Positions 34,533-60,067 of a DNA stretch of 64,000 bases are shown piece after piece (position 1 is the stretch's first letter; every line of letters starts with the position of its first letter). Below the pieces are notes generated by a model that was not told the origin of the DNA, did no database searches, and worked only from the letters and a program-made list of their open reading frames with translations. This DNA is from Flavivirga aquatica (GTDB lineage: Bacteria; Bacteroidota; Bacteroidia; Flavobacteriales; Flavobacteriaceae): positions 558,001 to 622,000 of the forward strand of contig NZ_MDJD01000034.1 of assembly GCF_001747085.1 (NCBI RefSeq). The letters run 5' to 3'. Position numbers and translations under genes: made by a program.

Positions 34533-35978
34533 ATGCTATTTAACTCATTCGAATTCCTTCTCTTTTTTCCAATTATGATCATTGGATTTTATGTTATACC
34601 CCATAAGTATAGATGGCTATGGCTTTTACTTGGAAGTTATTTTTTTTACATGGCTCATCAACCTGAACTTATAATTTTACTATGTATCTCTACCTTGGTC
34701 GATTATTATTGTGGTATAAAGATGTTTAAAACAAACAATGCTAAAATTAAAAAGATATTTTTAACATTTAGTATAATAACTAATGTTGGAATTCTTTTTC
34801 TTTTTAAATACTTCCTTTTTTTTACATCCAGTCTTGATGCTCTCATAGGTTTCTTTGGTGCAGAAATGTCACTAGAAGAAACAGCTAACTCTTATAACTT
34901 TAATAACATATTATTACCAATAGGTATTAGCTTTTACACTTTTCAAACAATGAGCTACTCTATTGAAGTTTATAGAGGCAGTATTAAACCTGAAAAGCAT
35001 TTAGGAAAATTCGCTTTATATATTGCATTCTTCCCTCAACTAGTTGCTGGTCCTATTGAGCGCGCCTCAAGACTTATCCCTCAATTAAAACAAAAAGTTC
35101 AAATTAACATACCTAATATAAAAAAAGGTTTAATACTTATGGCTTGGGGCTTTTTCCTAAAAGTTATTGTTGCAGATAGATTAGGTATATATGTAGATCA
35201 GGCTTTTAACAATCCTGAATCACCTCATAATATATCACTAATTTTAGGTGGTTTTTTCTTTTCGTTTCAAATTTACTACGATTTTTCTGCTTATACATCT
35301 ATAGCTATTGGGGCTGCAAAAACTATGGGTTATGATTTAATTCAAAATTTTAACAAACCTATATTTTCAACTTCTTTTTCTCAATTTTGGAAACGCTGGC
35401 ATATTTCCTTTATGCAATGGCTTAGAGACTTTTTATACAGACCACTAGTAAGAGATCAAAAAACAAATAGACTAACAGCTGTAATTATTGTTTTTTTTAT
35501 AAATGGTCTTTGGCATGGTGCAAATTGGACTTTTATAGTCTGGAGTCTATTAAATGCTTTGATACTTATTATAGAAATTGCGACAATTCCTATTAGAAAA
35601 AGAATTTTTAAAATGATGAGAATTCCTAAAAGAACAATACGTATACTTGGCTGGTTTACAGTTATTAATTACCTAACATTCACTTTAATTTTTTTCCGTT
35701 CTCCATCCCTATCTCAAGCCTTTTTATATATTAAAAACATGTTCTCCTTTGGTAGTTTACATATTGATATTTTAGGTAATTATTTTGAACTTTTTCTTTG
35801 CATAATTTTAATTTTAATTGTTCAGATAATTCATTACTATAAGGGTAACAACAAAGTATATGAAATCGTAACACAACGCCCTAACCATATAAGATATAGC
35901 ATGTATTTAGCATACATACTAATCATCGTTTTATTTGCTATAAATAGGCAAAATACTTTTATTTATTTTCAATTTTAA
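34533..35978 (+). CDS. MBOAT-family O-acyltransferase (AlgI/DltB-like)
   Basis: 481-residue polytopic inner-membrane protein of the AlgI/DltB/PatA group that moves acyl groups across the membrane onto glycans or teichoic acids. Family motifs: 'LPIGISFYTFQTMSYSIEVY' (~132), 'FPQLVAGPIERASRLIPQ' (~165), 'FWKRWHISFMQWLRDFLYRP' (~285) and the catalytic His328 in 'GLWHGANWTF'. It ends 'FIYFQF', as does the second MBOAT at 57129. The SGNH-type partner starts 10 bases after its stop. First gene of the plus-strand glycan cluster. Confidence 0.93.
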   Translation: MLFNSFEFLLFFPIMIIGFYVIPHKYRWLWLLLGSYFFYMAHQPELIILLCISTLVDYYCGIKMFKTNNAKIKKIFLTFSIITNVGILFLFKYFLFFTSSLDALIGFFGAEMSLEETANSYNFNNILLPIGISFYTFQTMSYSIEVYRGSIKPEKHLGKFALYIAFFPQLVAGPIERASRLIPQLKQKVQINIPNIKKGLILMAWGFFLKVIVADRLGIYVDQAFNNPESPHNISLILGGFFFSFQIYYDFSAYTSIAIGAAKTMGYDLIQNFNKPIFSTSFSQFWKRWHISFMQWLRDFLYRPLVRDQKTNRLTAVIIVFFINGLWHGANWTFIVWSLLNALILIIEIATIPIRKRIFKMMRIPKRTIRILGWFTVINYLTFTLIFFRSPSLSQAFLYIKNMFSFGSLHIDILGNYFELFLCIILILIVQIIHYYKGNNKVYEIVTQRPNHIRYSMYLAYILIIVLFAINRQNTFIYFQF

Positions 35979-35988
35979 AGTGTTTAAA

Positions 35989-36933
35989 ATGAGGTTTTTA
36001 ATTAAATTTTCTGTTTTCTGTTTACTATTAGCAACTACATATTTCATACTTATTCATAAGCTATCAAAAGGTTATGTAGATGAATATTACAATAAGTTTA
36101 CACAAGAAGCTGGTAGTTTAATAATAGGAGCCTCTAGAGCACAACAAGGAATTTCTCCTACTATTTTAGAAAATGAATTAAAAGAACACAACTTTAACAA
36201 GCCTGTAATAAATTTTGCTTTTGACGGTTTTCAATCTCCTTATGGGGAAGTTTACTTTAATGCTATTAAAAAAAAATCTAGCAACATTATTAACAATGGA
36301 CTATTCATCTTATCGGTATCTCCAGCAAGCTTTACTGCTTTTACTAAAGACGTAGAAATGGTATTAAATATGGATAAAAAAATGCGGATTGGTAAAGTGG
36401 ACAACTTTTCCTCTAACCCAAATTATAATTATATAATGAAATGCTATGAAAGTCCTTTATATAACTCTTTCCTACCTACTAATACATGGAAACATGCTTT
36501 ATGTCATACAAATGGATGGAATGAAATAAAAATAAAAAAAGGAAAACATATTATAAATGAAGCTGATATTAAACAATGGAAAAAACAAACACTAGATGGT
36601 TATAACAAGAAACTAGAAACAGAAGTTGACTCAAAATATCGCCTTAATAGCTTTTTAAATACTATCAAATTTTTAAAAAACAAAGGAACAGTTGTAATAA
36701 TTAGAATTCCAGCGGATTCAGATTTTATTGCAATGGAGAATAATTTATGGAAAAACTTTAACAGCCAAATAGATAGTATAGCTAAAAAACACGAAGTTCC
36801 TTATTTTAATTACTCAAATGAAGTAGGTTTTAAAACTTACGATGGTTCTCATTTAGAATCTGAAAGTGCAAAAAAACTAACAAAACTTTTAAGCAAGAGT
36901 ATTAAATCTTATCTTAATAACGATTTTAAGTAA
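35989..36933 (+). CDS. SGNH/GDSL-like partner protein of the MBOAT
   Basis: About 314 residues from the ATG at 35989 (a GTG at 35980 would add three). One N-terminal membrane anchor, then a periplasmic SGNH-like domain: nucleophile Ser in 'LIIGASRAQQGISP' (block I) and D-G-S-H in 'YDGSHLESESAKKL' near the C-terminus (block V). This resembles DltD- and AlgX/PatB-type partners that complete O-acyl transfer after an MBOAT. It lies directly behind the MBOAT gene, and its stop overlaps by one base the ATG of the first FemAB-like gene, indicating translational coupling. Confidence 0.82.
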   Translation: MRFLIKFSVFCLLLATTYFILIHKLSKGYVDEYYNKFTQEAGSLIIGASRAQQGISPTILENELKEHNFNKPVINFAFDGFQSPYGEVYFNAIKKKSSNIINNGLFILSVSPASFTAFTKDVEMVLNMDKKMRIGKVDNFSSNPNYNYIMKCYESPLYNSFLPTNTWKHALCHTNGWNEIKIKKGKHIINEADIKQWKKQTLDGYNKKLETEVDSKYRLNSFLNTIKFLKNKGTVVIIRIPADSDFIAMENNLWKNFNSQIDSIAKKHEVPYFNYSNEVGFKTYDGSHLESESAKKLTKLLSKSIKSYLNNDFK

Positions 36934-37946
36934 TGAAACGTAACCCATTTTTATCTAAAACCTTTAAATCTGTATGGTTAAAGCATTTTAACCATAGTAA
37001 AAAATGTACTTTTTTTAGTTTTATTCCAGAATTACCATTCGTAAAAAATAAGTTTTTACCACTTTATTATAATATAGGAAAAAATAACACCAAGGGCGTT
37101 AACTATATTTTATCAAAAAATATCGCTCCAGATTACAAAGGTCGTGTTTTTATCGTTTACGATGTTCCAGATTACACTCCAACAGACACCTTTTTAAACA
37201 ACCTAGGTGTTCATAAAATCACTCAATATCATGGATTTAAATGTAATTTAAAAAACTACAATAGCCTAAACGATTACTTATTAAAAGTTATTAGTAAAAA
37301 AAGCAGATCTAAATTTAAGGGGTATTTAAGAAAAATAAAAGATGCACTTAATATTACGCATAAAGTATACTACGGTACTATAAGCTCTGAAGAATATAAT
37401 TCTATCTTTAACACTTTTGAAATTTTATTAAAAAAACGTTTTTTTAACAAAAAAACAAACAACAACAACTTGAATCCTAAAGAATGGGCGTTTTTCACAG
37501 AAGTCACCTTACCAATGATTAGAAATAAAAAAGCAGCACTTTTCGTAACTTATGACAACACAAAGCCTATTGCCATTACACTTACCAATTTTTCTGATAC
37601 AGTAATGTATGATGTTATTCGAGTTTTTGATATTGATTACTCAAAATACAGACCTGGCATTGTAGGTGTTATGAAACAAATTGAATGGTGTCTAGAAAAT
37701 AAATTTGAAGCTTTAGATTTCTCTAAAGGTTATTATGAATATAAAAAGAGATGGGCTAATGAGCCTTATTGGTTTGAATATCATATTTATTATGACAAAA
37801 AATCATTTTTAGCTTGCTACATCGCATTAATATACAAGCTATTTTATTCACTAAAACTCTTTCTAAGAAAAAACGATTTAATAAATTATGCTCACAAATT
37901 ATTGTTTCTAAGAAACAAAAAGAAAATACAATTACTAAACAATTGA
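36933..37946 (+). CDS. FemAB/BioF2-like acyltransferase paralogue 1
   Basis: 337 residues of the GNAT-fold Acetyltransf_6 (BioF2/CelD-like) family, soluble or peripheral. It shares with five downstream neighbours the N-terminal block 'YHGFKCNLKNYNSLNDYLLK', a basic 'KKSRSKFKGYLRKIKDALN', 'VYYGTISSEEYNSIF', 'KKAALFVTYDNTKPIAITL', the core 'FDIDYSKYRPG' and 'EWCLENKFEALDFSKG', and 'YKKRW'. Relatives transfer acyl or aminoacyl groups to sugars or peptides, using acyl-CoA, acyl-carrier or aminoacyl-tRNA. The donor here is unknown. It lacks the C-terminal extension found in paralogues 3-6. Confidence 0.82.
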   Translation: MKRNPFLSKTFKSVWLKHFNHSKKCTFFSFIPELPFVKNKFLPLYYNIGKNNTKGVNYILSKNIAPDYKGRVFIVYDVPDYTPTDTFLNNLGVHKITQYHGFKCNLKNYNSLNDYLLKVISKKSRSKFKGYLRKIKDALNITHKVYYGTISSEEYNSIFNTFEILLKKRFFNKKTNNNNLNPKEWAFFTEVTLPMIRNKKAALFVTYDNTKPIAITLTNFSDTVMYDVIRVFDIDYSKYRPGIVGVMKQIEWCLENKFEALDFSKGYYEYKKRWANEPYWFEYHIYYDKKSFLACYIALIYKLFYSLKLFLRKNDLINYAHKLLFLRNKKKIQLLNN

Positions 37947-37979
37947 ATTTTTGATTAATTAAAATAAATAAGTCACCTG

Positions 37980-38924
37980 ATGATATTTAACAAACTCTTT
38001 AATTCTTATTTGTTTGTTTTTGATTTATACTTGGAGCACCAAATAAGTCCTTTTTATACTCCAAATATTTCAAATACCATATCACGTAATAAACTTATTA
38101 TTTCAAAAAAAACGTCTCAAAAAAAATTAAATCAAATATTTATATCTCGAGACATACCTGGATACCTAAACCTCAATGTAAATCACAAACATTTCAAAAA
38201 AGTTAAACAATACAAAGGCTACCTATTAAACCTATCTGGATACAATAATGCAGACGACTATATAATTAAAAACTTAAGCAGTCGAAATAAAAAAAATCTA
38301 AATTCAAAAAAGAACAAGCTTTTTAGAAATCATAAAATTTCTTCCAATTTTTATTTTGGAACCATCAATAAAGAGCACTACAATACACTTTTTAAAGTTT
38401 TTTATACATTACTAAATAACAGGTTTGATGAAAAAAAAACACACAACAGGTATCTAACTAATTGGAGTGATTTAAAAACATCAACTTTTCAGAAAATTTT
38501 AGACAAAAAAGCCTCTTTACATGTTATTTATGATAACTTAAAACCCATAACTTTTACTTTAAATTTTCATTTAAACGACACTGTTTTTAGTCATATTCAA
38601 ACTTACGATGTAAATTATTCAAAATACAACATGGGAGACATTAGTATGCTATACCATTTAGAGTGGCTAACAGAAAATAGTGTAGCAATATTTGATCTAT
38701 CCATGGGAAAAACATATTATAAACAAAAGTGGTCCAACCATGAATACGACTACATATATCATGTTTTCTATAATAAAAAATCCATAATATCAAGTATATA
38801 TTCAAACATTATAATACAAGAATTAAAGTTTATTCAGTTTTTAAGAGATCGAAATATTATAGGAAGATTATTTATGCTTGACAAACTCATATACTCCTAT
38901 AAAAAACAGATAATAAAACAATAA
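37980..38924 (+). CDS. FemAB/BioF2-like acyltransferase paralogue 2
   Basis: 314 residues, the shortest of the six-gene tandem set. It has 'YKGYLLNLSGYNNADDYII', 'SRNKKNLNSKKNKLFRN', 'FYFGTINKEHYNTLF', 'KKASLHVIYDNLKPITFTL', the core 'YDVNYSKYNMGD', 'EWLTENSVAIFDLSMG' and 'YYKQKW'. The basic block after the first motif is the most diverged in the set. It ends four bases before the likely ATG of paralogue 3. The clear family pattern but low mutual similarity implies old duplications and probably different acceptors. Confidence 0.8.
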   Translation: MIFNKLFNSYLFVFDLYLEHQISPFYTPNISNTISRNKLIISKKTSQKKLNQIFISRDIPGYLNLNVNHKHFKKVKQYKGYLLNLSGYNNADDYIIKNLSSRNKKNLNSKKNKLFRNHKISSNFYFGTINKEHYNTLFKVFYTLLNNRFDEKKTHNRYLTNWSDLKTSTFQKILDKKASLHVIYDNLKPITFTLNFHLNDTVFSHIQTYDVNYSKYNMGDISMLYHLEWLTENSVAIFDLSMGKTYYKQKWSNHEYDYIYHVFYNKKSIISSIYSNIIIQELKFIQFLRDRNIIGRLFMLDKLIYSYKKQIIKQ

Positions 38925-38928
38925 CTTG

Positions 38929-40122
38929 ATGTTAAAAAAAATTAAACCAGATAATCTAGATGTTTTAAGCGCTTCTTTAGAAAAAAAAGAAGCTCTACCT
39001 ATTTATAATAGTATAATAAACAGTATTTCTGGTTCTGTATTTTATAAAGACACTAAACATATTGACATAGAAAATAATAGATACTTATACTGCATTTACG
39101 ATTTCCCTAGTTACTTAAAAGGAGTTATTACAAACAAAAACTGGAAACTAAAAAGCATAAACACATACAAAGGCTCTTTAATCCTTTTAAAAAACTATAA
39201 AAACGCAGACGATTATCTTAAAAATAAATTTAGCCCTAATAGAAGATCTAAATTTAAAACCTATAAAAGGAGGCTAGAAACCTGTTTCAATATTGAATAT
39301 ATAAGCTATTATGGCTCTATTACCAAAGATAAATACGACTATCTCTTTGAAGAATTTCACATAATGATAAAAAAACGCTTTTTAGAAAAAGAAGCAAAAA
39401 ACTACGATTTATCTCGTTGGGAAATTTACCATGAAATAGCATACTCTTTAATAAATAACAAAGAAGCTGTTTTATTTGTTATTTACAACAACGATAAACC
39501 TATTAGTATTTGTTTAAACCTTATTAGAAACAAAACTATTTATGGCTATATAAGGTCTTATGATATCGATTACTCAAAATTCTATATTGGTTTTACAGAT
39601 TTTATACAACAAATCCATTGGTGTTACAATAATGGTATTCAGATTTTTGACTTATTAAAAGGGAATTACCCATACAAAACAAAACTAATTGATTCTCAAT
39701 ATGACTTCCAAAAACATGTCCTATACAACTCGAGTTCTTTATTAACTTTTTTGTCGGCCAAAATTATAATCTACAAAACATTAGCATTTTATGACTTAGT
39801 AAGATTTTTAAAAAAATTCAACATAAATATTTTATATCATAAAATCCTAAAATATAGACATAAAAATAGCGAATCAAAAAAAACTAAAGAACACTTAAAA
39901 AGCATAGTTATCACTAATAATGTAAAAATTGAATCTTACCCTAAACTAACTAAAATCGATTCAAACAACAAATCGTTAAGTTATTTAAAAAGGCCTCTTT
40001 ATAATTTTCTATATACAAGCCAAGAATCTATAAATACGGTTGAGATATTCAGTATTAATGATTCATTAGACACATATCTTATAAAGGGTAAAAACTTAAC
40101 ACAACAAATACATTTTCAATAA
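38929..40122 (+). CDS. FemAB/BioF2-like acyltransferase paralogue 3, with C-terminal module
   Basis: About 397 residues from the ATG at 38929 (an in-frame TTG lies at 38926). It has 'YKGSLILLKNYKNADDYLK', 'NRRSKFKTYKRRLETCFNIE', 'SYYGSITKDKYDYLF', 'KEAVLFVIYNNDKPISICL', 'YDIDYSKFYIG', 'HWCYNNGIQIFDLLKGNYPY' and 'YKTKL', where other copies have a Trp after the basic residue. The last ~60 residues ('LSYLKRPLYNFLYTSQESIN', 'YLIKGKNLTQQIHF') form an extra module shared only with paralogues 4-6. Confidence 0.8.
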   Translation: MLKKIKPDNLDVLSASLEKKEALPIYNSIINSISGSVFYKDTKHIDIENNRYLYCIYDFPSYLKGVITNKNWKLKSINTYKGSLILLKNYKNADDYLKNKFSPNRRSKFKTYKRRLETCFNIEYISYYGSITKDKYDYLFEEFHIMIKKRFLEKEAKNYDLSRWEIYHEIAYSLINNKEAVLFVIYNNDKPISICLNLIRNKTIYGYIRSYDIDYSKFYIGFTDFIQQIHWCYNNGIQIFDLLKGNYPYKTKLIDSQYDFQKHVLYNSSSLLTFLSAKIIIYKTLAFYDLVRFLKKFNINILYHKILKYRHKNSESKKTKEHLKSIVITNNVKIESYPKLTKIDSNNKSLSYLKRPLYNFLYTSQESINTVEIFSINDSLDTYLIKGKNLTQQIHFQ

Positions 40123-40124
40123 TT

Positions 40125-41306
40125 TTGAGACACATTAAGCACATAACTTTTTTAAAAGCACTTTTATCTAATAATAGCTTACCTCTTATTTATAAAGCGA
40201 TTACAAATAATACTAATCTATTTTATAATACTAAAACAGATTCAATTCTAAATTTAAAAAACCATGTTCTTATAGTAAAAGACATCCCTAACTATCTAAA
40301 CATAACAATAGAAAAACACCTCAATAAAACCTTTATTAATAAAATAAAAACCTTAAAAGGGCATTTAATAGAGCTTCATAATTATCAAAGTATTTCAGAC
40401 TATTTAAATCATAATTTCAGCACAAAAAGTAGATCGAATTTAAGACGCTATAAAAACAGATTAGAAACATGCTTCAATATAAAATATGTATCATACTACG
40501 GAAATATTGAAAAACAAGAATACGATAGATTATTTATTGTTTTAAAAGATTTATTAGAACGAAGATTTAACGAAAAAGGAGAAATCAACTATGAATTACA
40601 GTATTTAAATGAGTTTAATAACATCGTATACGAGCAAATACTAAACAAGAAGGCTAATTTATTTGTAATATATGATGGAAATAAACCTATAAGTATTAGA
40701 ATAAATATGCTGAAAGACAAACTCAATTTCTATATTCTTAGTGGTTATGATATTGATTATTCAAAATTTCACATAGGAAGTCTTGATATGCTAAAAAATA
40801 TAGAATGGAGCATCCAAAATAACATTAAAAGTTATGACCTTTTAAAGGGATATGATTATTACAAAAAAAAGTGGGCAACTAAATCATATTACTACAGCAA
40901 TCATATTATTTACAACTCCAATAGCATTAAAATATTCATAATCGGGAAACTCACATATATTAAATATACACTTAAATACAAGACTTATAATCTACTTAAA
41001 AATAAATACATAGATATAATATATAGAAAATTCAAAAAAGGCTTTTTTAGCAAAAACAATCTTTACCAAAAAAAAGATAAAACATTTATTTTATCAAATT
41101 CAAACACAAAAAATTCAAACAAAATCACTAAAATAAATATTGAGCAAAATAATGAATATCAGTTTCTTAGAAAGCCCGTTTACGATTTTCTGTTTTTAAA
41201 TAATGAATCCATAAATAACATAACAGTTAACAAATTCACAGATTCGACACAGAAATTTCAAATTCAATCAAAAAATAAAATACATTTATTAACAGTAATA
41301 AATTAA
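40125..41306 (+). CDS. FemAB/BioF2-like acyltransferase paralogue 4, with C-terminal module
   Basis: 393 residues; starts with TTG two bases after the previous stop, and no ATG exists nearby that would keep the conserved N-terminus. It has 'LKGHLIELHNYQSISDYLN', 'KSRSNLRRYKNRLETCFNIK', 'SYYGNIEKQEYDRLF', 'KKANLFVIYDGNKPISIRI', 'YDIDYSKFHIGS', 'EWSIQNNIKSYDLLKGYDYY' and 'KKKW'. C-terminal module 'YQFLRKPVYDFLFLNNESIN' as in paralogues 3, 5 and 6. It is closest to paralogue 3 in the N-terminal half. Confidence 0.8.
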   Translation: MRHIKHITFLKALLSNNSLPLIYKAITNNTNLFYNTKTDSILNLKNHVLIVKDIPNYLNITIEKHLNKTFINKIKTLKGHLIELHNYQSISDYLNHNFSTKSRSNLRRYKNRLETCFNIKYVSYYGNIEKQEYDRLFIVLKDLLERRFNEKGEINYELQYLNEFNNIVYEQILNKKANLFVIYDGNKPISIRINMLKDKLNFYILSGYDIDYSKFHIGSLDMLKNIEWSIQNNIKSYDLLKGYDYYKKKWATKSYYYSNHIIYNSNSIKIFIIGKLTYIKYTLKYKTYNLLKNKYIDIIYRKFKKGFFSKNNLYQKKDKTFILSNSNTKNSNKITKINIEQNNEYQFLRKPVYDFLFLNNESINNITVNKFTDSTQKFQIQSKNKIHLLTVIN

Positions 41307-41321
41307 AAATAACACCTGTAT

Positions 41322-41337
41322 AAAAAAAAAAAAAAAA
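41322..41337 (+). repeat. A16 homopolymer ending in the start codon of paralogue 5
   Basis: Sixteen consecutive A residues; the last is the A of the ATG at 41337. Tracts of this length change size by polymerase slippage, here inside the initiation region. Confidence 0.9.
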
Positions 41338-42542
41338 TGAAACTAACTAAAAAGCAAATAAATAAAAGCTTTTTCTTAGATCTTTTCTTTAAAGACAAAG
41401 CCTTCCCTCCTTTTTATAAAAAAATAACCAATTTGCTCTCCAAAAATGTTAGTTATAATTGCAACTCTAATTCAAAATACAATCCACCTCATATATATAC
41501 CATAATTGATATACCTAGTTATTACTCAATTGAATTCAGTAAAGACTATACATATTTAAAATCGCTCACTACACCTCTTTACTCTGGATACTTAATAAAC
41601 CTAACAGCATACAACAACCTTGAAGACTATCTTAACAACAAATTAGGGAAAGCAAGAAAATCACAATTAAAACGCTACAGAAAACGATTAGACCTATGTA
41701 TATCTCCTATTTATAAAATATTTTATGGCGATATTACAAAAGAAGAATACACATTTCTTTTTAAAGAGCTGGTAATAATGACTAAACGTCGTTTTACTCA
41801 AAAAGAGGAATCAAATTTCGAATTACCTTTTCTAAAACTATACGAAAATATGATGTACAAGTTGATATTAGAAAAGAAAGCTAGCATATTTACCATTTAC
41901 GACAATGATAAACCCATAAACATAAGTTTAAATTTCACAGACCAAGATACCGTTTTTCACTGGAATAGCTGCTATAATATCGATTACCAAATGTTTAACC
42001 TAGGTCATATAAATATGGTAAACCATCTAGAATGGGCTTATAAAAATGAATTTAAATTATTCGACATGAGTAGAGGTGATTTTTTTCACAAAAGGAAATA
42101 CGTAAACGAAAGCTATACGTATAATGCAAACATCATATACAATCCTAGCAAATTATCTAATTCTTTTAAAGCTAATTTACAATTTTTAAAACTAAAAATA
42201 CGCTATGCAATAATTCAATTACTTAAAAAATATAATTTACATTTATGGTACAGTAAATACCTAAAGTATAAATACAGGTTAACTAGCTCAAAAAACAACA
42301 TATCATTACAAAACAACATTAAAATAGACAATATTATTTCAGAAATACCTAATTTTAATAAACAAATTCAAATTAACTTAAATAAAAATAAATATGCTTT
42401 CTTAATTAGGTCCTTAAATTATTTTTTACATAAAAACCAAGAACAAATTAAAAACGTTACAATTTATAATGATTTTAAACATAAACAAACTTACTATTTT
42501 AAAGGTGCCAAAACCCATCAAAAAATAACAATTATAGACTAG
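41337..42542 (+). CDS. FemAB/BioF2-like acyltransferase paralogue 5, with C-terminal module
   Basis: 401 residues. It has 'YSGYLINLTAYNNLEDYLN', 'KARKSQLKRYRKRLDLCISP', 'IFYGDITKEEYTFLF', 'KKASIFTIYDNDKPINISL', 'YNIDYQMFNLGHINM', 'EWAYKNEFKLFDMSRGDFFH' and 'KRKY'. The usual YDIDYSKF is YNIDYQMF and the final Trp is Tyr, so it is the most atypical copy in the core. C-terminal module 'YAFLIRSLNYFLHKNQEQIK'. It starts at the end of an A16 tract, 30 bases after paralogue 4. Confidence 0.8.
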   Translation: MKLTKKQINKSFFLDLFFKDKAFPPFYKKITNLLSKNVSYNCNSNSKYNPPHIYTIIDIPSYYSIEFSKDYTYLKSLTTPLYSGYLINLTAYNNLEDYLNNKLGKARKSQLKRYRKRLDLCISPIYKIFYGDITKEEYTFLFKELVIMTKRRFTQKEESNFELPFLKLYENMMYKLILEKKASIFTIYDNDKPINISLNFTDQDTVFHWNSCYNIDYQMFNLGHINMVNHLEWAYKNEFKLFDMSRGDFFHKRKYVNESYTYNANIIYNPSKLSNSFKANLQFLKLKIRYAIIQLLKKYNLHLWYSKYLKYKYRLTSSKNNISLQNNIKIDNIISEIPNFNKQIQINLNKNKYAFLIRSLNYFLHKNQEQIKNVTIYNDFKHKQTYYFKGAKTHQKITIID

Positions 42543-43696: not shown

Positions 43697-43839
43697 CACT
43701 ACTATTTTAAATCACAAAAAAATAAAATAAACCGTTCATCCCAAAACCTAGTAATAGAAAGAGAAAATCCAATGAAAACTAATTACTTTTATATATTTGC
43801 CATCTTATTTATTAATTGGCTAATCCAACCCTTTGTTTT

Positions 43840-46101: not shown

Positions 46102-46102
46102 C

Positions 46103-51812: not shown

Positions 51813-52460
51813 ATGGAAAAAACTAAAGAAAATAATAAAAATATTAGAATTTATGGAGCTGGCGGTCACTCGCAAGTTATCAAAGAAGTTCTTAAACAAA
51901 ATGGATATGCCATTAGTGACACCTTTGATGATAAACCCGAAGGTAGCCATTATGCATCTAAAAATGTAACAACAGGGGCTAGAAAAGACTTAACTAGCTT
52001 CCCTCATGCAGGGGATCCTGTGATAATTGCTGTGGGTACAAATGCGCATCGTGCAGAAATTGCCCAATTTCTTAATTGCAAATACGAAAAAGCCATTCAC
52101 GCTTCAGCTATTATATCACCAACATCAAAAGTTGGAGAAGGTACTGTTGTTTTTGCAGGCGCAATAATACAACCAAATACAACTATAGGAAAACATGTCA
52201 TTATTAATACAGGAGCAAGTGTCGACCATGATAATATTATAGGAGACTTTGCTCACATCTCTCCTAAAGCTGCTTTGTGTGGGCATGTTGAGGTTGGAGA
52301 AGGTAGTCATGTAGGGGTTGGAGCCGTTGTAATTCCAAAAGTCAAAATTGGAAAATGGTGTACAATTGGAGCTGGCACAATTGTTATAAAAGACATTCCT
52401 GATTACTCAACTGTTGTTGGTAATCCTGGTAGAATAATTAAAACTAACAACCCTCTTTAA
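51813..52460 (+). CDS. PglD/NeuD-like sugar acetyltransferase, copy 2
   Basis: 215 residues with the same domain order as the preceding gene but clearly diverged. 'IRIYGAGGHSQVIKEVLKQN', then hexapeptide repeats, catalytic His in 'INTGASVDHDNIIGDFAHIS', acetyl-CoA site 'GVGAVVIPKVKIG' and the end 'VVGNPGRIIK'. This copy is closer to canonical PglD (VDHD). The pair may acetylate two different amino positions or sugars. Two bases separate its stop from the GTG of the giant fusion gene. Confidence 0.9.
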   Translation: MEKTKENNKNIRIYGAGGHSQVIKEVLKQNGYAISDTFDDKPEGSHYASKNVTTGARKDLTSFPHAGDPVIIAVGTNAHRAEIAQFLNCKYEKAIHASAIISPTSKVGEGTVVFAGAIIQPNTTIGKHVIINTGASVDHDNIIGDFAHISPKAALCGHVEVGEGSHVGVGAVVIPKVKIGKWCTIGAGTIVIKDIPDYSTVVGNPGRIIKTNNPL

Positions 52461-52468
52461 AAGTGAAT

Positions 52469-55400
52469 ATGCAGAATACAACATCTAATATTACATTTAT
52501 TGGCTCAGGAATTTCAACATCCTTCAGCATTTTAAATTTTTTAGACCTCATTGATTATGAAACCCGTCTAAATAATAAAATATCAATAAATATAATTGAA
52601 AAGTATTCTGAATTTAATCTAGGAATCCCTTATGGTTCAAGATCAGGGTTTTCTACGCTTTTAATAACATCATTAGAGAATTTTTTAATAGAGCCTGAGT
52701 TAACTTTATTTATTGACTGGCTTAATAAGAATAAAACATGGCTTTTAGATAAATTTAAAAAAGAAGGTGGTAGCCTATCTAAAAAATGGCTTACAAATAA
52801 CGAAGAAGCTATACGTAATAACAAATGGAAAAAACTCTTTATCCCAAGACGTTTTTTTGGTTGTTACATTAATTCAAAAATTAATGATAAAATAAAAAAA
52901 CTCACAGACAAGGGGTTAATTACAGCCAACTTTATTCAAGGAGAAGTTATAGATTTAGAAGAAATTAATGATTCATATAAGGTAATCTTAAGCGATGGCT
53001 CTAAAATTAATTCTAAAAAAGTAGTTTTATCTACAGGCTCTTTACCTGTTAACCAACTATGGAAAAATGAAGAACTCATAGAGAAAGAAAACTTAATGTT
53101 TATAAACAACCCCTATAAACCTGAGTTAGGAATTGTTTTAAACAAAATTAATAAATACCTTGATAAAAGAATTAATAAAACAACAAACATCCTCATAGTT
53201 GGTGCCAATGCTAGTGCCCTAGAGTTAATTTATAAAATTAATGATTTTGCTAAAAAAAACTATAGCAACACTAATTTTACTTTTCTATCTTCTCAAGGTA
53301 GAATCCCTGATGCTGTAATTGATGAAGAACGAAAAAAGAATTTTGTACCTAAACATTTAGAAGCACTAAACAAAGAAGAAAAATTAACCGCTAAATTAAT
53401 TAACGAAGCGACTATCAAAGACATTGATGTTGCAGATAAAATTAAATTAGGTCCAGCATCGACAGTTAATATTATTTCAAAATCTTTTGGAGTATTACTT
53501 AATAAACTTGACACTAAAGAACTTGAAATATTTGCTTATAAATATGGAAACGAAATAGGCAAAAGACAACGTTGTGCAGGAGAACATTACACAAATAATG
53601 TAAACCAATTAGAAGCCGAAAATAGATTTGAGCATATTTCTGGACGCTTTAGCAATATGCAATGTGATAATTCAGAAAACTACAGCTTACTATATTTAGA
53701 TTCATTAGCTAAAAAAGAAAAACTTCACAATAAACACTTTCATATAGTTATTAATTGTGTTGGAAGCAAAAATTTAAATCATGAAGATATACCCCAACTT
53801 CATAAAAACTTAATTAAAAAGAAGTATTGCGTACCAAATAAATCAAAAATTGGATTTTATGTAAACGAAGCACTAGAAACTAGAAAAAATTTACATATAA
53901 TGGGACCATTGCTTGCTGGTAATGTTATAGAAAATAGAGCTGTATGGCATATTGAGCATTGCGGAAGAATTATCTGGCTTTCAAAAGTGTTATCAAAAAT
54001 CATATTTAATGATTTAAAAGAAGTTAAAATGTTCATTCAAAAAGATTACACATTAGAAGTCAATGACCTAGGCAATGAATCTGATATCAAAAAATACAAT
54101 ACGCTATTAGAAAAAAATTGGGATAATAATATTTATTATGCTTATGATCACTTAAAGTATTTTAAAAAAGATTTAAATTTATTAAAATATTTTTTATTAA
54201 AAATTAATGGTACTCCAAAAGTTTTAATGCCAATTGTTTTAATGCCAATTGTTTTAAATGAAAAAAAATTAGATTATTACGATGCCATTACCCCTTATGG
54301 GTATAGTGGCCCTTTACATAACAGTGATTTAATTACTGAGCTAGATTTAAAAAAATTCTGGAAAGCTGTTGATACTTGGTATAAAAATAATAATGTAATT
54401 ACTGAATTTACAAGATTTAGTTTAAATAATAACCAATTAGGATATTCCGGTTTATTATTAACTTCACTTTTAAATGTAAAAGGCGTACTTAGTGATAATT
54501 TCGAGGATCAATGGAATGCTTTCTTACCTAAAGTTAGAAACAATTATCGTAAAGCAACATCGTATAACCTAAGTATTAAAATTTTCTGTAGAGAAATGAT
54601 AACCAATGATGCCATTCAAATATTTTTTGATATTTACACAAAAACGATGGTACGAAATAATGCAAAAACTATATACTATTTCTCATTGGATTATTTTAAA
54701 AGTCTGATTAAAAACAATATAAATCAATTCTTAATAGCCATAGTTTACCTTGGAGAAACTCCTATTTCAACAGAATTAATAATAAAAAACAATAATACAT
54801 TATTCGCTTTTTTAGGAGGTACTGACGCTGATTATTTTTATTCTAGACCTAATGATTACTTAAGAGTAAGAATTATTAAATGGGCTGTAGTAAATAACTT
54901 CAAATATTATATATTAGGGGGCGGCTTAAAAGATGGAGATGGACTGTATAAAAGCAAGAAATCATTTTTTCCTAAAGATATTGATATTCCGTTTTTTACA
55001 GGAAGAAAAATTATAAATAATAAAGTTTATAATGATTTAATTAAGCAAGTAAAATATAAATGTAGCCATATTGATAATTTAATGAAAGACACAAATACTT
55101 TTTTTCCTGTATATAGACTCAATAATGAAAAAAAAAAGACTTCCTCATTTGATGTAATATCATCAAAAGAAGATTGGGTAGAAGCTCTTGACAGTGTAAA
55201 AAACTACGATTTCTACCATACCTATGATTATCATAATTTATCAAAGGAAAAGGATGAAAAAGCTGTTTTATTAAAATATATAGAAGAAGACAAAATAATT
55301 TGCTTACCAATAATTATAAGAAAAATTGAAGGTACCGAATATTGTGACATAACATCTGTTTATGGATATTCAGGACCTATACAAAAAAACATTGATCCTT

Positions 55401-56158
55401 CTTTTGATAACACAAACTTACTTAAGGAATTAAATGCTTTTTTTGAAGAGCATAAAATAGTATCTGTTTTCTCTAGGCTAAACCCTTTTATTAATAATCA
55501 AGAAAACATACTAAATAACCTTGGAGAAGTTGTAACAATTGGAAACGTAGTTAATGTAGATGTTACCAAAGACTTAGATGCTCAACGTACAGATTTTTCT
55601 AAAACTACAAAAAGGTATTTAAATAAAGCAAATAAACATTTAGAGATAAAAATAAGTAGAGACAAAAAAGATATTGTTGAATTTATAAATCTATATTATG
55701 AAAATATGGATCGAGTAAATGCAGAAGAAAAATATTATTTCACAGAAGAATATTTTCATAAATTAATTAATAGTACAGATTATGAAACAGATGTTTTATT
55801 TGCAATAAATAAAGAAACCAATAAAATAATATCTGCAGCAATGATGATCAAAACTAATAACATCATTCAATATCATCTTTCTGGAACTAAATCTTCTTTC
55901 TTAAACCTATCACCAATACGCTTACTTATTGACGAAATGCGTATTCGAGGTACAAAAGAAAACTATACTTATTTTAATTTAGGAGGAGGGCTTGGTAATA
56001 ATAATGATGAATTATTTAGGTTTAAATCTTCTTTCTCTAAAGATTTTAAATCGTTTAAAATATGGAGACATATAGTAAATCAATCCGTTTATGACAAACT
56101 AGTAAAAGAAAAAACTAAAAATCAAGAATCTACCTTTTTCCCGCTGTATAGAGGTTAA
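52469..56158 (+). CDS. Fusion of FAD/NAD(P)-binding domain with two FemAB-like acyltransferase domains
   Basis: About 1,229 residues from the ATG at 52469 (a GTG at 52463 adds two). Domain 1 (~1-540) is an FAD/NAD(P)-binding oxidoreductase of the NAD_binding_9 type: 'ITFIGSGISTSFSI', 'GIPYGSRSGFSTLLITSLEN', a second Rossmann motif 'ILIVGANASALELI' and 'IVINCVGS'. Domain 2 (~550-880) and domain 3 (~885-1229) are FemAB-like and duplicate each other: 'PYGYSGP' / 'VYGYSGP', 'ILGGGLKDG' / 'NLGGGLGNN', and ends 'FFPVYR' / 'FFPLYRG'. This combination is very unusual. Its 3' end overlaps the convergent SGNH gene by 4 bases. A 15-bp tandem duplication encodes 'VLMPIVLMPIV' near residue 590. Confidence 0.85.
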   Translation: MQNTTSNITFIGSGISTSFSILNFLDLIDYETRLNNKISINIIEKYSEFNLGIPYGSRSGFSTLLITSLENFLIEPELTLFIDWLNKNKTWLLDKFKKEGGSLSKKWLTNNEEAIRNNKWKKLFIPRRFFGCYINSKINDKIKKLTDKGLITANFIQGEVIDLEEINDSYKVILSDGSKINSKKVVLSTGSLPVNQLWKNEELIEKENLMFINNPYKPELGIVLNKINKYLDKRINKTTNILIVGANASALELIYKINDFAKKNYSNTNFTFLSSQGRIPDAVIDEERKKNFVPKHLEALNKEEKLTAKLINEATIKDIDVADKIKLGPASTVNIISKSFGVLLNKLDTKELEIFAYKYGNEIGKRQRCAGEHYTNNVNQLEAENRFEHISGRFSNMQCDNSENYSLLYLDSLAKKEKLHNKHFHIVINCVGSKNLNHEDIPQLHKNLIKKKYCVPNKSKIGFYVNEALETRKNLHIMGPLLAGNVIENRAVWHIEHCGRIIWLSKVLSKIIFNDLKEVKMFIQKDYTLEVNDLGNESDIKKYNTLLEKNWDNNIYYAYDHLKYFKKDLNLLKYFLLKINGTPKVLMPIVLMPIVLNEKKLDYYDAITPYGYSGPLHNSDLITELDLKKFWKAVDTWYKNNNVITEFTRFSLNNNQLGYSGLLLTSLLNVKGVLSDNFEDQWNAFLPKVRNNYRKATSYNLSIKIFCREMITNDAIQIFFDIYTKTMVRNNAKTIYYFSLDYFKSLIKNNINQFLIAIVYLGETPISTELIIKNNNTLFAFLGGTDADYFYSRPNDYLRVRIIKWAVVNNFKYYILGGGLKDGDGLYKSKKSFFPKDIDIPFFTGRKIINNKVYNDLIKQVKYKCSHIDNLMKDTNTFFPVYRLNNEKKKTSSFDVISSKEDWVEALDSVKNYDFYHTYDYHNLSKEKDEKAVLLKYIEEDKIICLPIIIRKIEGTEYCDITSVYGYSGPIQKNIDPSFDNTNLLKELNAFFEEHKIVSVFSRLNPFINNQENILNNLGEVVTIGNVVNVDVTKDLDAQRTDFSKTTKRYLNKANKHLEIKISRDKKDIVEFINLYYENMDRVNAEEKYYFTEEYFHKLINSTDYETDVLFAINKETNKIISAAMMIKTNNIIQYHLSGTKSSFLNLSPIRLLIDEMRIRGTKENYTYFNLGGGLGNNNDELFRFKSSFSKDFKSFKIWRHIVNQSVYDKLVKEKTKNQESTFFPLYRG
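54221..54250 (+). repeat. 15-bp tandem duplication inside the fusion gene
   Basis: GTTTTAATGCCAATT occurs twice in direct succession and a partial third copy, GTTTTAA, follows. It inserts five residues (V-L-M-P-I) in frame at the start of the first FemAB-like domain. Confidence 0.9.
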
Positions 56159-57123
56159 TCAGTTTTCGTTTTTTCATCTTTTATATAGTTATAAATAACA
56201 CCTGCAACCAAATTTCTACCATGGTTATTCCAATGCCTATCGTAAATTAATGTCGTAGGTTTTTTTGATTCATTAAAACTTTGAGAAAAATCTATATATT
56301 TAAAATTATTATCATCCAAATAATTTAAAAATACTTGGGGAGTAATTCCCTTATCTATAAGAAGCATAAATCGCTCTTTATCAAAACCATATATATCTAT
56401 TAGATTTTGAAAATTTTTAATATAAGTTGCATGCTTGATTTCAAGATCTTGTTTAGTTTCTTTTTTTTGATGCACATAAGGCTTTTTCTTTTTTCCTATT
56501 GAAGCCAAACGTCCTGCTAATTTCCATAAAGGCGCTAATACTCCTATGTTTTGAGCATAAACTAATAACTTTATTCGACGTGCTTTTTTGTACAATGGAG
56601 ATTCTAAGTGCATTCTATCTTGTACAACATGATACTCTCCCCTATTTAAGTCATTTTTAAATTTTAAACCCAAAACAACATGGTCTATTAAATCAAATGT
56701 TTCTTTATACGCATAAATTAAATGTAATTGATCCGCTAAATCATATCCTGCATATCCATATTCATAAACCTCGGTGTCGACTAATTTATCTTCTATTTTT
56801 TTACCTATCGAATTATAATAATTTTGATGAAAACCTTCAATAAATGAATCTCCTACTAATGCTAATTCAATTTTATCCTTAGATGGTGTAAACTCCCTAT
56901 AAGAATTATATCCAAAACTGTTTATATAAAACTTTGAGAAATTTTGACGCCTATTTCCTGTAACAGAATATCCTTCTTGATTGGGTATCCATTTTTCAAC
57001 TTTATATTCGTCAACAAATCGTGATGGATTATCCTTATTTAAGTGGAAGACACGCACAATAAATTCTAATGAAATTAAAATCAAAATGATATACAAAGCA
57101 CTTTTTATAATTATCTTTTTCAT
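56155..57123 (-). CDS. SGNH-family partner protein of the second MBOAT
   Basis: 322 residues. Membrane anchor ~4-22, then periplasmic SGNH domain: nucleophile Ser93 in 'ALVGDSFIEGFH' (block I, G-D-S), 'VVLGLKFKNDLNRGEY' and C-terminal block V 'YDRHWNNHGRN' with Asp and His. The D-x-H-W-N-x-x-G ending is typical of AlgJ/AlgX-like glycan O-acetyltransferase partners. It is transcribed after the MBOAT gene at 57129 with a 5-base gap, mirroring the MBOAT-SGNH pair at the other end of the cluster. Confidence 0.85.
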   Translation of the reverse strand: MKKIIIKSALYIILILISLEFIVRVFHLNKDNPSRFVDEYKVEKWIPNQEGYSVTGNRRQNFSKFYINSFGYNSYREFTPSKDKIELALVGDSFIEGFHQNYYNSIGKKIEDKLVDTEVYEYGYAGYDLADQLHLIYAYKETFDLIDHVVLGLKFKNDLNRGEYHVVQDRMHLESPLYKKARRIKLLVYAQNIGVLAPLWKLAGRLASIGKKKKPYVHQKKETKQDLEIKHATYIKNFQNLIDIYGFDKERFMLLIDKGITPQVFLNYLDDNNFKYIDFSQSFNESKKPTTLIYDRHWNNHGRNLVAGVIYNYIKDEKTKTD

Positions 57124-57128
57124 CTTTC

Positions 57129-58580
57129 TTAAAATTGAAAATAAATAAATGACCTATCAATATTACTATCATAAAACAAAAGCATTCCAAGAATTACTAT
57201 AGTATAAATAATAAATCTAACTATTTTAGACTTAAACTTAAATGGAGAGCGCTCATCCTTTCTAATACGATATTCGTATAAAACAAAAACTATAATAAGA
57301 ATATAATAATCAATCATGCGATACCCCATAGGATGACAGTATGATTTATAAGAAAAATCACTTAAAATTCTTTTTATAAACCCAAAAGCATCAGTAATCG
57401 ATTCAGATCTAAAAAATATTCTTGAAAAAGTTACTATTGAAAAAGTAAATAGCATCTGCCCTACTTCTATTAATGAAGGAAAATAAGAGTTCTCACCTAC
57501 TACACTATTTTTATATATAGTATTTCTTCCCATTAAAAATACAGGAATAAATACTAAAGCATGAAAAGCTCCCCAAAAAATAAAAGTCCAATTCGCACCA
57601 TGCCAAAAACCACTAACTAAGAAAATAATAATAATATTTCTAACAGATTTCAACTTACTAACTCTTGAGCCTCCTAATGGAATATAAATATAATGTCTAA
57701 ACCATGTTGAAAGTGATACATGCCAACGCTGCCAATACTCCGCTACATTTCTAGAAAAAACTGGAAATTTAAAATTTGACATTAATTCTATTCCAAATAA
57801 TTTTGCTGTACCTATAGCTATATCTGAATATCCACTAAAATCACCATACACCTGAAAACTAAACAATGTTACTCCTAAAATAAGACTAGAAGCTGGGTAG
57901 GATGTATAATTAGAAAAAATATCATCTACTATTGGAGCTAAAGCATCAGCTATAACTACCTTCTTGAATAAACCCCAAAGTATTAATTTTAAACCACCAA
58001 CAGATTGATCATAATTAAATATTCTTTTTTTATTAATTTGAGGCAGTAAATTAGATGCCCGTTCAATAGGACCAGCTACTAATTGGGGAAAGAAACTAAC
58101 AAATGTTGCAAAAGATAAAAAATCTCTAGTAGGCTTAAGTCTTCTATAATAGATATCAAAAGAATAAGACATAGTTTGAAATGTGTAAAAAGAAATACCA
58201 ACAGGAAGAATAATCTTTAATGTCCATACACTATTCATATTATATCCAATCGCAGAAAACATATCTACCCAGGAGTCAACAAAAAAATTATAATATTTAA
58301 AAAAACCTAAAAGACCTACATTAAATAAAACGCTTACCCAAAGCCATTGTTTTCTTTTAAACGTTGTCTCATTGGAATCTATCATTATTCCAACAAAATA
58401 ATCTACAATTGTACTCAACATTATTAAAGAAAGAAACCTCCAATCCCACCAGCCATAAAATACGTAACTTGAAATAAGTAAAAGGATATTTTGAGACTTA
58501 ACATATTTCTTAAAAAAAAACCAATAAAATATAAAAATAGTTATAAGAAAAATGAAGAACTCTAAAGAATTAAATACCAT
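57129..58580 (-). CDS. Second MBOAT-family O-acyltransferase (AlgI-like)
   Basis: 483-residue polytopic membrane protein. Motifs 'LPVGISFYTFQTMSYSFDIY', 'FFPQLVAGPIERASNLLPQ', 'YWQRWHVSLSTWFRHYIYIP' (canonical AlgI wording, unlike the first copy) and catalytic His327 in 'GFWHGANWTF'; ends 'SFIYFQF'. It exports and transfers an acyl group, probably acetate, to the periplasmic glycan together with the SGNH partner downstream. It is transcribed toward the cluster from the right, whereas the first MBOAT enters from the left. Confidence 0.93.
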   Translation of the reverse strand: MVFNSLEFFIFLITIFIFYWFFFKKYVKSQNILLLISSYVFYGWWDWRFLSLIMLSTIVDYFVGIMIDSNETTFKRKQWLWVSVLFNVGLLGFFKYYNFFVDSWVDMFSAIGYNMNSVWTLKIILPVGISFYTFQTMSYSFDIYYRRLKPTRDFLSFATFVSFFPQLVAGPIERASNLLPQINKKRIFNYDQSVGGLKLILWGLFKKVVIADALAPIVDDIFSNYTSYPASSLILGVTLFSFQVYGDFSGYSDIAIGTAKLFGIELMSNFKFPVFSRNVAEYWQRWHVSLSTWFRHYIYIPLGGSRVSKLKSVRNIIIIFLVSGFWHGANWTFIFWGAFHALVFIPVFLMGRNTIYKNSVVGENSYFPSLIEVGQMLFTFSIVTFSRIFFRSESITDAFGFIKRILSDFSYKSYCHPMGYRMIDYYILIIVFVLYEYRIRKDERSPFKFKSKIVRFIIYTIVILGMLLFYDSNIDRSFIYFQF

Positions 58581-58948
58581 AACAGACTTAATAAGTGATT
58601 TTTATTCTAAAATTTAGTTTAAATATGCTACATATAATAACACTAAAAAAATAAAATCTTTAAACTCACCTTTAATCACTTTAATCAACATAAAATACAA
58701 AAAATCACTTCATTTTTTTTCTTCAAAAAATCATTTTTAAACACTTTTATACGCTTTAAATGATTTAATAATTTTTCATTTTACAACTTAATAAACCCTT
58801 TTTTATCATCAATTGTGCTTTTAAAAGAAGAAGTTAGCTAGTTAAAAGACTTTTTTTGATCATTTAAACTTTATTATAGATATTTCAAAAAATCAGCCCT
58901 TAATAAAATAAAAAAAATCCTACATTATGAATACGTAAACATTAAATA
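58581..58948. other. 370-base divergent spacer, no gene
   Basis: Strongly AT-rich region between the second MBOAT (-) and the ATP-grasp gene (+). I see no convincing operator, hairpin or small ORF; it presumably holds the two promoters. Confidence 0.5.
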
Positions 58949-60067
58949 ATGATAGATAGAAAAATATCCATTTTAATCCCTGATGGTGAAGCACCTGTTT
59001 TAATGATAGTATTAAATTGCTTATCAGAAGCAAGAGGAATTAAAATTCATGTTATGTCCAATGATAAGGACATTCCTATGAAGCATTCTAAGAATGTTGA
59101 TAAATTTTCTTATTACCCAAAAACAGATTCTGAAACAGATTTAATAGATAATATAAATAAAGAGGTAGAAAAGTACAATATAGACTTAATATTACCAATT
59201 TTCGAAGATAGTATTGGTATAATTTTAAAGCACAAAAACTTAATTAATTCAATTGATAAACTAGCATTATTACCATCTTACGCTAATTTCAATATAGCAA
59301 ATAATAAAGGTAACTTAACAAAACTCTTAGAAAAAAACAATTTACCTTATCCTAAAAGTAAAATAATAGAAAAAAATATTCCTTTTGATATAAAGGAAAT
59401 TAGATACCCTGTACTTGTAAAGCCAGTAGAAGGTATTGGTGGCGGGCTTGGTATATATGTATATAAAGATGAAAAAGAGTTTACAGAATTCCTTAATTCA
59501 GATAAATTTAACTGTACATATCTTGCACAAGATTATGTAGAAGGTTATGATATTGATTGTAGTGTTCTATGTAAAAATGGAGAAATAAAAGCTTATACTA
59601 TACAAAAAGCCAATATGCACGGCGTTAGTAAATTTGAGCCACAATATGGTATAGAATTTTTAAAAGAAGATGTTTTATATGGAATTATTAAGCAACTCAT
59701 GAAAACATTAAATTGGTCTGGAGTAGCTCATATTGATATGAGATATGATAAAAACACTAATGAGTTTAAAATTATTGAAGTAAACCCTAGGTTTTGGGGA
59801 TCTGTAGAAGCTTCTTTACTTGCTGGAGTAAATTTCCCATATTTATATTGTGCCGCTAGCTTGAATTATAATTTTGATATCCCTAAATATAATTTTATAA
59901 AATATTTAAATATGAAGGGCTTAATAAAAAGTATCAAAAACAATAAAAGTAATCTATTCAAGTTTAATTTTATTTTGAAAAACACACCTTTAAAATACTC
60001 AATAAAGGATCCAATGCCAACACTTTATAGGTTTAACCGTTTTATTTTAAGAAAAATTAAGTCTTAA
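58949..60067 (+). CDS. ATP-grasp ligase (CarB-like) of the glycan cluster
   Basis: 372 residues. N-terminal Rossmann-like pre-ATP-grasp domain ('ISILIPDGEAPVLMIVLNCL'), then ATP-grasp motifs 'YPVLVKPVEGIGGGLGIYVY' (phosphate loop), 'LAQDYVEGYDIDCSVLCKNG', 'GVAHIDMRYD' and Mg-binding 'FKIIEVNPRFWGSVEASLLA'. The family joins carboxylates to amines through acyl-phosphates. Substrates are unknown; near a glycan cluster, amidation of a uronic acid or linkage of an amino acid is plausible. Its terminator is interrupted by an IS4-family element. Confidence 0.85.
   Translation: MIDRKISILIPDGEAPVLMIVLNCLSEARGIKIHVMSNDKDIPMKHSKNVDKFSYYPKTDSETDLIDNINKEVEKYNIDLILPIFEDSIGIILKHKNLINSIDKLALLPSYANFNIANNKGNLTKLLEKNNLPYPKSKIIEKNIPFDIKEIRYPVLVKPVEGIGGGLGIYVYKDEKEFTEFLNSDKFNCTYLAQDYVEGYDIDCSVLCKNGEIKAYTIQKANMHGVSKFEPQYGIEFLKEDVLYGIIKQLMKTLNWSGVAHIDMRYDKNTNEFKIIEVNPRFWGSVEASLLAGVNFPYLYCAASLNYNFDIPKYNFIKYLNMKGLIKSIKNNKSNLFKFNFILKNTPLKYSIKDPMPTLYRFNRFILRKIKS

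Follow-up and report, generated by a model that had tools for sequence, protein, structure and literature searches.

A candidate three-gene aminoacylation module in a surface polysaccharide locus of Flavivirga aquatica

The sequence under study is a stretch of 64 kb (29% G+C), referred to below as the window, from the 4.64 Mb genome of Flavivirga aquatica (Flavobacteriaceae; contig NZ_MDJD01000034.1, positions 558,001 to 622,000). Its genes are named by their start positions, and gene 47565 is also called GN*. We somewhat favor a reading in which the core of the gene cluster at 34533-60067 is a three-gene aminoacylation module, consisting of GN* (47565..48662, + strand), a stand-alone amino-acid adenylation enzyme (48677..50170, +) and a dedicated carrier protein (50176..50418, +), set in a Wzx/EpsG-type polysaccharide locus, with GN* moving an aminoacyl group to the amine of an amino sugar. 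The sequence support consists of an adenylation domain (A-domain) of the amino-acid type, the carrier serine, the linkage of GN*, the NMT-like fold predicted for GN*, and genes for 4-amino-sugars (PglF-, DegT-, PglD- and PglC-like). A preliminary description of this cluster had proposed a Dlt-like machinery embedded in a glycan locus; all the genes it named are present where it placed them, and its view of amino-acid activation and a carrier in a surface-glycan setting stands, but its Dlt-like transfer step is not supported. It did not name GN* as a partner.

Enzyme 48677 matches the AMP-binding family (1.2e-52), and its best NCBIfam model is TIGR01733 (amino-acid adenylation), at 287.9 bits under a cut-off of 317.4; one of five relatives' A-domains scanned with this model lies above it (326 bits). 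The nearest solved structure is the nonribosomal peptide synthetase (NRPS) protein LgrA, two A-domains of which give 345 bits together, and the DltA chains among the structure matches listed give 134-151 bits. Asp192 lies at what we take to be the amino-group-binding position Asp235, and Lys486 at what we take to be the carboxylate-binding position Lys517; both anchors are kept in 20 of 20 aligned A-domains. The amino-acid-activating type claimed earlier is thereby supported. The DltA tests failed: the DltA equivalog TIGR01734 gives 245.3 bits (cut-off 559.85) and a second DltA model 255 bits (cut-off 476). In an alignment of the group itself and LgrA, with no DltA sequence included, Gly261 occupies the pocket position at which the Dlt-like type II relatives described below carry Cys; Cys269 is presumably the DltA pocket residue that sets D-alanine (D-Ala), and a marker of DltA. 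As judged from its sequence, 48677 is an amino-acid-type enzyme, like DltA in kind but short of the DltA tests. The pocket DFV[ST]SGY[IV]YK (DFVSSGYIYK in the window) is not known to match any amino-acid code. The dedicated carrier was correctly recognized: 50176 matches PF00550 (8.9e-06; 26.3 bits, cut-off 20.8) and keeps the phosphopantetheine Ser in DGWGSL. Very probably, 48677 would adenylate an amino acid and load it onto this carrier as an aminoacyl thioester.

The linkage of these genes was followed in two surveys. In the first, 299 genomes drawn from the family were searched, the best five candidates per genome being scored, and 15 of them (the own genome included) hold an A-domain at E < 1e-100. 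The neighborhoods of these 15, and of the additional genome G118, were compared; in this set 14 of 15 GN* genes adjoin an A-domain. For the second survey the GTDB genome collection was scanned with a GN* alignment, starting from two short peptide patterns, so that distant relatives are missed. This gave 69 loci with 70 GN* genes, two of them at a contig edge, from genera such as Aquimarina, Wocania, Flavivirga, Algibacter and Hyunsoonleella, which we take to belong to the Flavobacteriaceae, and from a few metagenome-assembled genomes whose names go no further than class, order or family. The A-domain lies directly downstream of GN* in all 68 genes with room for it (gap −36 to 191 bp, median 15), which makes a chance origin of the observation unlikely. 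A carrier motif follows within 500 bp of the A-domain in 64 of the 68; BLAST finds a carrier in three of the four misses (L085, L126 and L141). The remaining one is the leading pair of a GN*-A tandem in Spongiivirga citrea (L137); the pockets of the two pairs read DATKIGHVCK and DFVTSGYVYK, with a single carrier for both pairs. A stricter count by order of open reading frames (ORFs) finds the A-domain in 66 and the carrier in 57 of the 69 loci, the lower figures reflecting contig ends and short ORFs that were overlooked or spurious. Across 395 genomes of the phylum, strong GN* matches occur only in the own genome and in G219, with weak ones in four others.

The setting of the module is likewise conserved, with a PglC-like gene within the flank in 65 and FemAB-like domains in 66 of the 69 loci. 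In nearly all relatives examined, the A-domain and carrier sit together in a surface-glycan setting, and neither a fatty or aryl acid substrate nor a consistent location of the pair outside glycan clusters gains support from the sequences. Tree distances of GN* and the A-domain correlate at r 0.88 over 36 loci (L137 left out), the highest value among the 15 pairs formed by six genes; the other 14 lie at 0.07-0.67, with paralogues pooled by best score for MBOAT and in part for PglC and GT4, and the MBOAT values (0.07-0.24) are unreliable because several paralogues per locus were pooled.

The A-domains fall into several pocket types. Those of the first survey comprise type I, D[FM]V[ST]S[GA]Y[IV]YK, in the window and seven other genomes; type II, DL[VM]LLCVI[YF]K with the Cys motif LFCGEALP, in G019, G239, G070 and G214; and type III, DATK[IV]GHVCK, in six genomes. 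The pockets of G223 and G118 are unlike all three. Among the 69 loci a total of 68 pockets were read, namely DFVTSGYVYK (50), DFVSSGYIYK (4), DATK[IV]GHVCK (7), DMVICAYIYK (3), DFVVCGSVTK (2) and two singletons; the pocket of the seven type III loci resembles the Asp code of the NRPS field. Type III forms one clade in the A-domain tree (support 1.0), and six of its seven members do so in the GN* tree (support 0.97), the L137 copy standing apart; type I, as labelled, is a single clade in neither tree. With the DltA model, the two type II enzymes scanned give 270.5 and 271.7 bits versus 245-250 for types I and III, all below the cut-off.

The AlphaFold2 model of GN* (predicted local distance difference test score, pLDDT, 84.1) is a double GNAT. 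VIA-align superposes it on N-myristoyltransferase (NMT) 4cax with Z 18.9 and a root-mean-square deviation (rmsd) of 3.9 over 294 aligned residues at 10% identity, covering residues 1-364, and all matches listed are NMT entries (the title of one, 8hbs, does not spell out NMT). Foldseek places a Legionella acetyltransferase first, followed mostly by N-myristoyltransferases. The end of the model superposes on the ends of NMT chains, for example on residue 455 of 2nmt, and the last six residues match [RQS]D[GA]xxx in 70 of the 70 genes of the loci (the window protein ends in DGHFY). The available text of PMC4964394 names L455 as the C-terminal base of NMT and describes such carboxylate catalysis as unique to NMT among GNATs. 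Twelve GN* members contain no Pfam NMT domain above cut-off; PF01233 (NMT) matches one of them weakly (E 0.03) and Acetyltransf_1 matches eight weakly. Profile comparison found no relation between GN* and the FemAB-like array of the cluster (probability 0.2%). A carrier-dependent N-acyltransferase is, on the strength of the NMT-like predicted fold and the constant end that aligns to the NMT base, a reasoned proposal for GN*. In the step that we modestly favor, GN* would take the aminoacyl group from the carrier and acylate an amine, most likely that of an amino sugar linked to uridine diphosphate or undecaprenyl, with its C-terminal carboxylate acting as base in an NMT-like manner. The own genome also encodes a distant GN* paralogue (107 bits; G000:C7:772441-773544, L150), which adjoins a polysaccharide deacetylase gene.

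GN* might instead be a plain acetyl-coenzyme A (acetyl-CoA)-dependent amino-sugar GNAT, the product of A-domain and carrier going to the FemAB-like domains. The weak Acetyltransf_1 matches in eight of 12 members and the FemAB-like domains of 66 of 69 loci would agree with this, but GN* adjoins the A-domain, its tree tracks that of the A-domain more closely than do those of four other genes, and NeuD/PglD acetyltransferases are already there; we regard it as unlikely.

Several points weigh against aminoacyl transfer by GN*. All the chemistry of the module is inferred. Identity to NMT is only about 10%, numerous double-GNAT folds exist, and the first Foldseek match of the GN* model is another acetyltransferase. 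The donor could be acetyl-CoA or aminoacyl-tRNA, and the acceptor could be a lipid or protein rather than a sugar. The pocket DFV[ST]SGY[IV]YK gives no pointer to a particular amino acid as the substrate of 48677. Tight linkage alone could yield part of the correlation between the GN* and A-domain trees, and the comparison genes include pooled paralogues. In G214, GN* adjoins the carrier and the only A-domain found, about 6 kb away, is of the MBOAT-coupled type; G223 and G118 have no GN* within the stretch examined, which disturbs the simple picture; and no A-domain relative adjoins the GN* paralogue L150.

The preliminary description had named two MBOAT and SGNH pairs and assigned delivery to MBOAT export and/or cytoplasmic FemAB-like transferases. 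MBOAT 1 (34533..35978, +; PF03062, 6.2e-27) is followed by 35980..36933 (+), and MBOAT 2 (57129..58580, −; PF03062, 2.4e-30) is paired with 56155..57123 (−). Both MBOATs are upheld by PF03062. No SGNH family in Pfam matches either partner, 35980 having zero Pfam matches and 56155 a weak, sub-cut-off match to another family, and the SGNH label therefore rests on conserved GxS/GDS and DxxH/DxH motifs: a Ser and DGSH in 35980, GDSF and D-x-HWNN in 56155, each conserved in alignment. Both MBOATs end in FIYFQF, as do 32 of 32 first-survey MBOATs longer than 400 residues, those of type II among them, and 64 of 64 in the named loci. FxYxxF is the acyl-tyrosine shuttle, located on a separate protein (DltX) in Dlt systems and fused to the MBOAT in carrier-less pairs, which evidently use acyl-CoA, according to the available text of PMC12148441. 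No plausible frame for a DltX-like small gene ending in FxYxxF is found at 33-61 kb, a 51-residue frame antisense to 58949 being probably due to chance. Given the fused shuttle motif and the lack of an A-domain/carrier pair of their own, the two window pairs are, by analogy, probably ordinary O-acylation pairs. Their role as delivery arm was dropped as first choice, the A-domain adjoining GN* and both MBOATs carrying the fused shuttle.

Cassettes of the Dlt-like order, consisting of A-domain, carrier, MBOAT and SGNH-like gene with a Cys-type pocket, do occur near the GN* module in G239 (C3:616058-620165, L044/L045), G070 (L047/L048), G019 (L042/L043) and G214 (L069). They pair a carrier with a fused shuttle, which is an unusual mix. 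The DltB model gives 171.5 bits for the type II MBOAT of G239 versus 135.6 and 140.1 for the window MBOATs, all below cut-off. In G070 there is a further set of carrier, MBOAT and SGNH genes that lacks an A-domain. These cassettes show that the arrangement exists in such loci, and together with the presence of all four activities in the cluster and with DltB as closest solved relative of MBOAT 2 (86 bits), they speak for a Dlt-like route, in which the aminoacyl-carrier would feed a window MBOAT and the group would pass via the tyrosine shuttle to the SGNH protein and be esterified to the exported glycan. This route appears improbable. The Dlt operon order is not present in the window, which reads GN*, A-domain, carrier, PglC; 48677 is of the GN*-coupled type, with a pocket lacking Cys; each window MBOAT stands beside an SGNH-like gene without an A-domain or carrier of its own; and fused-motif pairs lacking a carrier evidently use acyl-CoA, as far as the text of PMC12148441 goes. 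The type II cassette of G070 sits between a hexapeptide gene and an EpsG-like gene, which adjoin each other in this genome, so the cassette is not at the corresponding place here, and the first survey shows no other close A-domain in this genome.

All eight PF13480 (FemAB-like) matches of the whole genome fall inside the cluster. Six belong to a tandem array on the + strand, all above cut-off: F1 (36933..37946; 4.9e-12), F2 (37980..38924; 1.6e-07), F3 (38926..40122; 7.2e-13), F4 (40125..41306; 9.6e-12), F5 (41337..42542; 4.1e-08) and F6 (42566..43696; 7.6e-07). The order F1-F6 is kept in G006, G019, G239, G070 and G247 (G239 and G070 have one F3-like copy more) and also in L139, L141, L142 and L148 (extra F3 in L148); parts of it are seen elsewhere where the flank is cut. 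Orthologues in the five genomes share 51-68% with the window copies, and window F3 shares 29-35% with its five paralogues. Profile search of the array against solved structures gave nothing at E 0.1, and its alignment with 52463 by hhalign gave E 7.7e-05 (probability 62%). Gene 52463 (52463..56158, +) encodes an unusual fusion of an FAD/NAD(P) domain (NAD_binding_9, N-hydroxylase-like; PF13454, 2.2e-10) to two stretches of FemAB-like aminoacyltransferase domain (PF13480); G176 has a separate flavodomain gene. A phmmer search with the whole 1231-residue protein returned nothing at E 1. Its middle domain matches FemX by profile (E 3.6e-05) and by structure (Z 17.8, rmsd 2.5, 160 aligned, from a model of pLDDT 60), and also the aminoacyl-tRNA-dependent peptide synthases Sba18 and Sbb17, some of these structures containing streptothrisamine. 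The top Foldseek matches of the flavodomain are DesB, SidA and PvdA, with FzmM lower down; FzmM aligns over 420 residues with Z 15.6, a value that thioredoxin-reductase-type chains equal, and at pLDDT 60 the model is too weak for a class assignment. The flavodomain accompanies 46 of 55 type I pockets, none of seven type III and one of six others, counts that are not corrected for kinship; in G214 it occurs with a type II A-domain only, which speaks against a tight tie to type I.

Attachment or modification of further amino acids is the probable task of the eight FemAB-like domains and the flavodomain. That the FemAB-like domains would attach such amino acids, probably from aminoacyl-tRNA, is a suggestion we hold evenly balanced, and oxygenation of an amino-acid nitrogen or related group by the flavodomain is a tentative and rather doubtful one. 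The same parts would also suit a small-molecule pathway, in which A-domain, carrier, flavodomain and FemAB-like domains make a peptide-like metabolite and the glycan genes are mere neighbors: NRPS domains are the nearest match of 48677, the flavodomain is similar to N-hydroxylases of natural-product pathways, and structures of tRNA-dependent peptide synthases match the FemX-like domain. We give this pathway only a slim chance, for among 21 cluster proteins no thioesterase, condensation domain or NRPS module was found (Pfam, E 0.01), the flank of 65 of 69 loci contains a PglC-like gene, and in G239 the module lies within a Wza-Wzx-EpsG locus. A far-reaching version of aminoacyl transfer by GN*, and a long shot, is a ribosome-free assembly line for a surface glycopeptide. 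Here GN* would begin by attaching a carrier-activated amino acid to a lipid-linked amino sugar, the six ordered FemAB-like paralogues and two fused domains would then contribute one specific amino acid apiece from aminoacyl-tRNA, and the flavodomain would N-oxygenate one of them, the pocket types (DFV.., DATK.., DMV..) being swapped between species. If true, pocket swaps would change the first amino acid and yield surface diversity through exchange of one module.

The order of genes at 34533-60067 is MBOAT, SGNH-like, six PF13480 genes, GT4, ATP-grasp, PaaK-like, GN*, A-domain, carrier, PglC-like, two NeuD-like genes and the fusion; the second SGNH-like gene and MBOAT follow on the opposite strand, and then an ATP-grasp gene. 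The glycan genes named in the preliminary description are borne out: a GT4 glycosyltransferase (43816..44997, +; PF00534, 2.1e-31), a PglC-like initiating sugar-phosphate transferase (50440..51072, +; PF02397, 1.4e-59) and two NeuD/PglD-like amino-sugar acetyltransferases (51095..51760 and 51813..52460, both +; TIGR03570 above cut-off). The remaining genes, all on the + strand, encode a sugar-transfer-associated ATP-grasp ligase (45058..46101; PF14397, 1.7e-40), a PaaK/CapK-like AMP-forming enzyme (46085..47407; NF045666 at 7.1e-18, below cut-off, with no Pfam match at E 0.01) and a further ATP-grasp ligase (58949..60067; PF02655, 1.1e-12).

The locus that holds the module in G239 also contains members of the Wza, PglF, DegT, Wzx and EpsG families, and G120 appears similar. 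In the genome under study, genes resembling these five stand in inverted orientation on the window's contig, at 505-524 kb. Of the gene types of the Pgl bacillosamine pathway, the PglF- and DegT-type genes lie about 72 kb before the cluster start, and the PglD- and PglC-type genes inside the window. Wzx, EpsG and Wza would probably polymerize and export the product, with the two MBOAT/SGNH pairs O-acylating it outside from acyl-CoA. An inversion of about 84 kb has apparently divided the polysaccharide locus (window 26866-34044; contig C34:504-524 kb, L159, L160). An IS3-type transposase pair (30344-31290) is close to the inversion breakpoint. Downstream of this pair lies the beta-helix protein 32083, relatives of which directly precede MBOAT 1 in G070 and, judged by position, in G239. 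Genes for an Lrp-type regulator and an M14 peptidase (61264-63013) may mark the downstream border of the locus, since their relatives also follow it in G239 and G120.

The Bordetella dra locus is reportedly Dlt-like. With it and with Dlt the cluster shares a stand-alone adenylation enzyme and a separate carrier, accompanied within the locus by MBOAT and SGNH-like genes. It differs from Dlt in that its A-domain scores below the DltA cut-off and lacks the pocket Cys, in that the constant partner is GN* instead of DltB, and in that the MBOATs themselves carry the shuttle motif that Dlt has on a separate DltX, with no DltX-like gene beside them. As described in the available text of PMC4448142, dra is a Gram-negative locus that puts D-Ala on the outer membrane. 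In Porphyromonas gingivalis the putative N-acetyltransferase VimA has been proposed to put Ser or Gly on a linking sugar, and relatives of VimA are linked with PEP-CTERM loci (PMC7468200, in the part available). This pathway, with its 2-N-seryl linking sugar, resembles the one proposed here: in both, an amino acid would be attached to an amino sugar of a surface glycan in Bacteroidota, and the pathway is a precedent for N-aminoacylated amino sugars in the phylum; that part of the source mentions no A-domain/carrier partner, whereas the window has GN* and eight FemAB-like domains. XrtA/PEP-CTERM exopolysaccharide loci also combine an AMP-forming ligase (TIGR03098) with a FemAB-family protein (TIGR03019), and window proteins match both models, but far below cut-off (177.6/592 and 38.7/260, respectively); a Pfam scan of the 21 cluster proteins showed no exosortase. 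Eukaryotic NMT shares with GN* the predicted double-GNAT fold and an aligned chain end, but uses myristoyl-CoA, whereas GN* is bacterial, about 10% identical and linked to an amino-acid carrier. FemX and the streptothricin-type FemX-like peptide synthases are similar in fold and profile to the middle domain of 52463; the window differs in being a surface-glycan locus with six tandem paralogues and one copy fused to a flavodomain.

Literature searches in the open-licence part of PubMed Central turned up no account of a GN*-A-carrier module, an absence that is weak evidence. In chemical terms, amino acids are a frequent feature of Gram-negative surface polysaccharides; to our knowledge the enzymes responsible have been identified in only a few cases. 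The conserved A-domain, carrier and GN* suggest a way of decorating surface sugars with amino acids that is distinct from Dlt. The module is a compact candidate, three adjacent genes in cultured marine Flavobacteriaceae, whose pocket types should map to different amino acids, and GN*, if it uses an aminoacyl-carrier, would be a bacterial enzyme of NMT-like fold that draws on a novel type of acyl donor.

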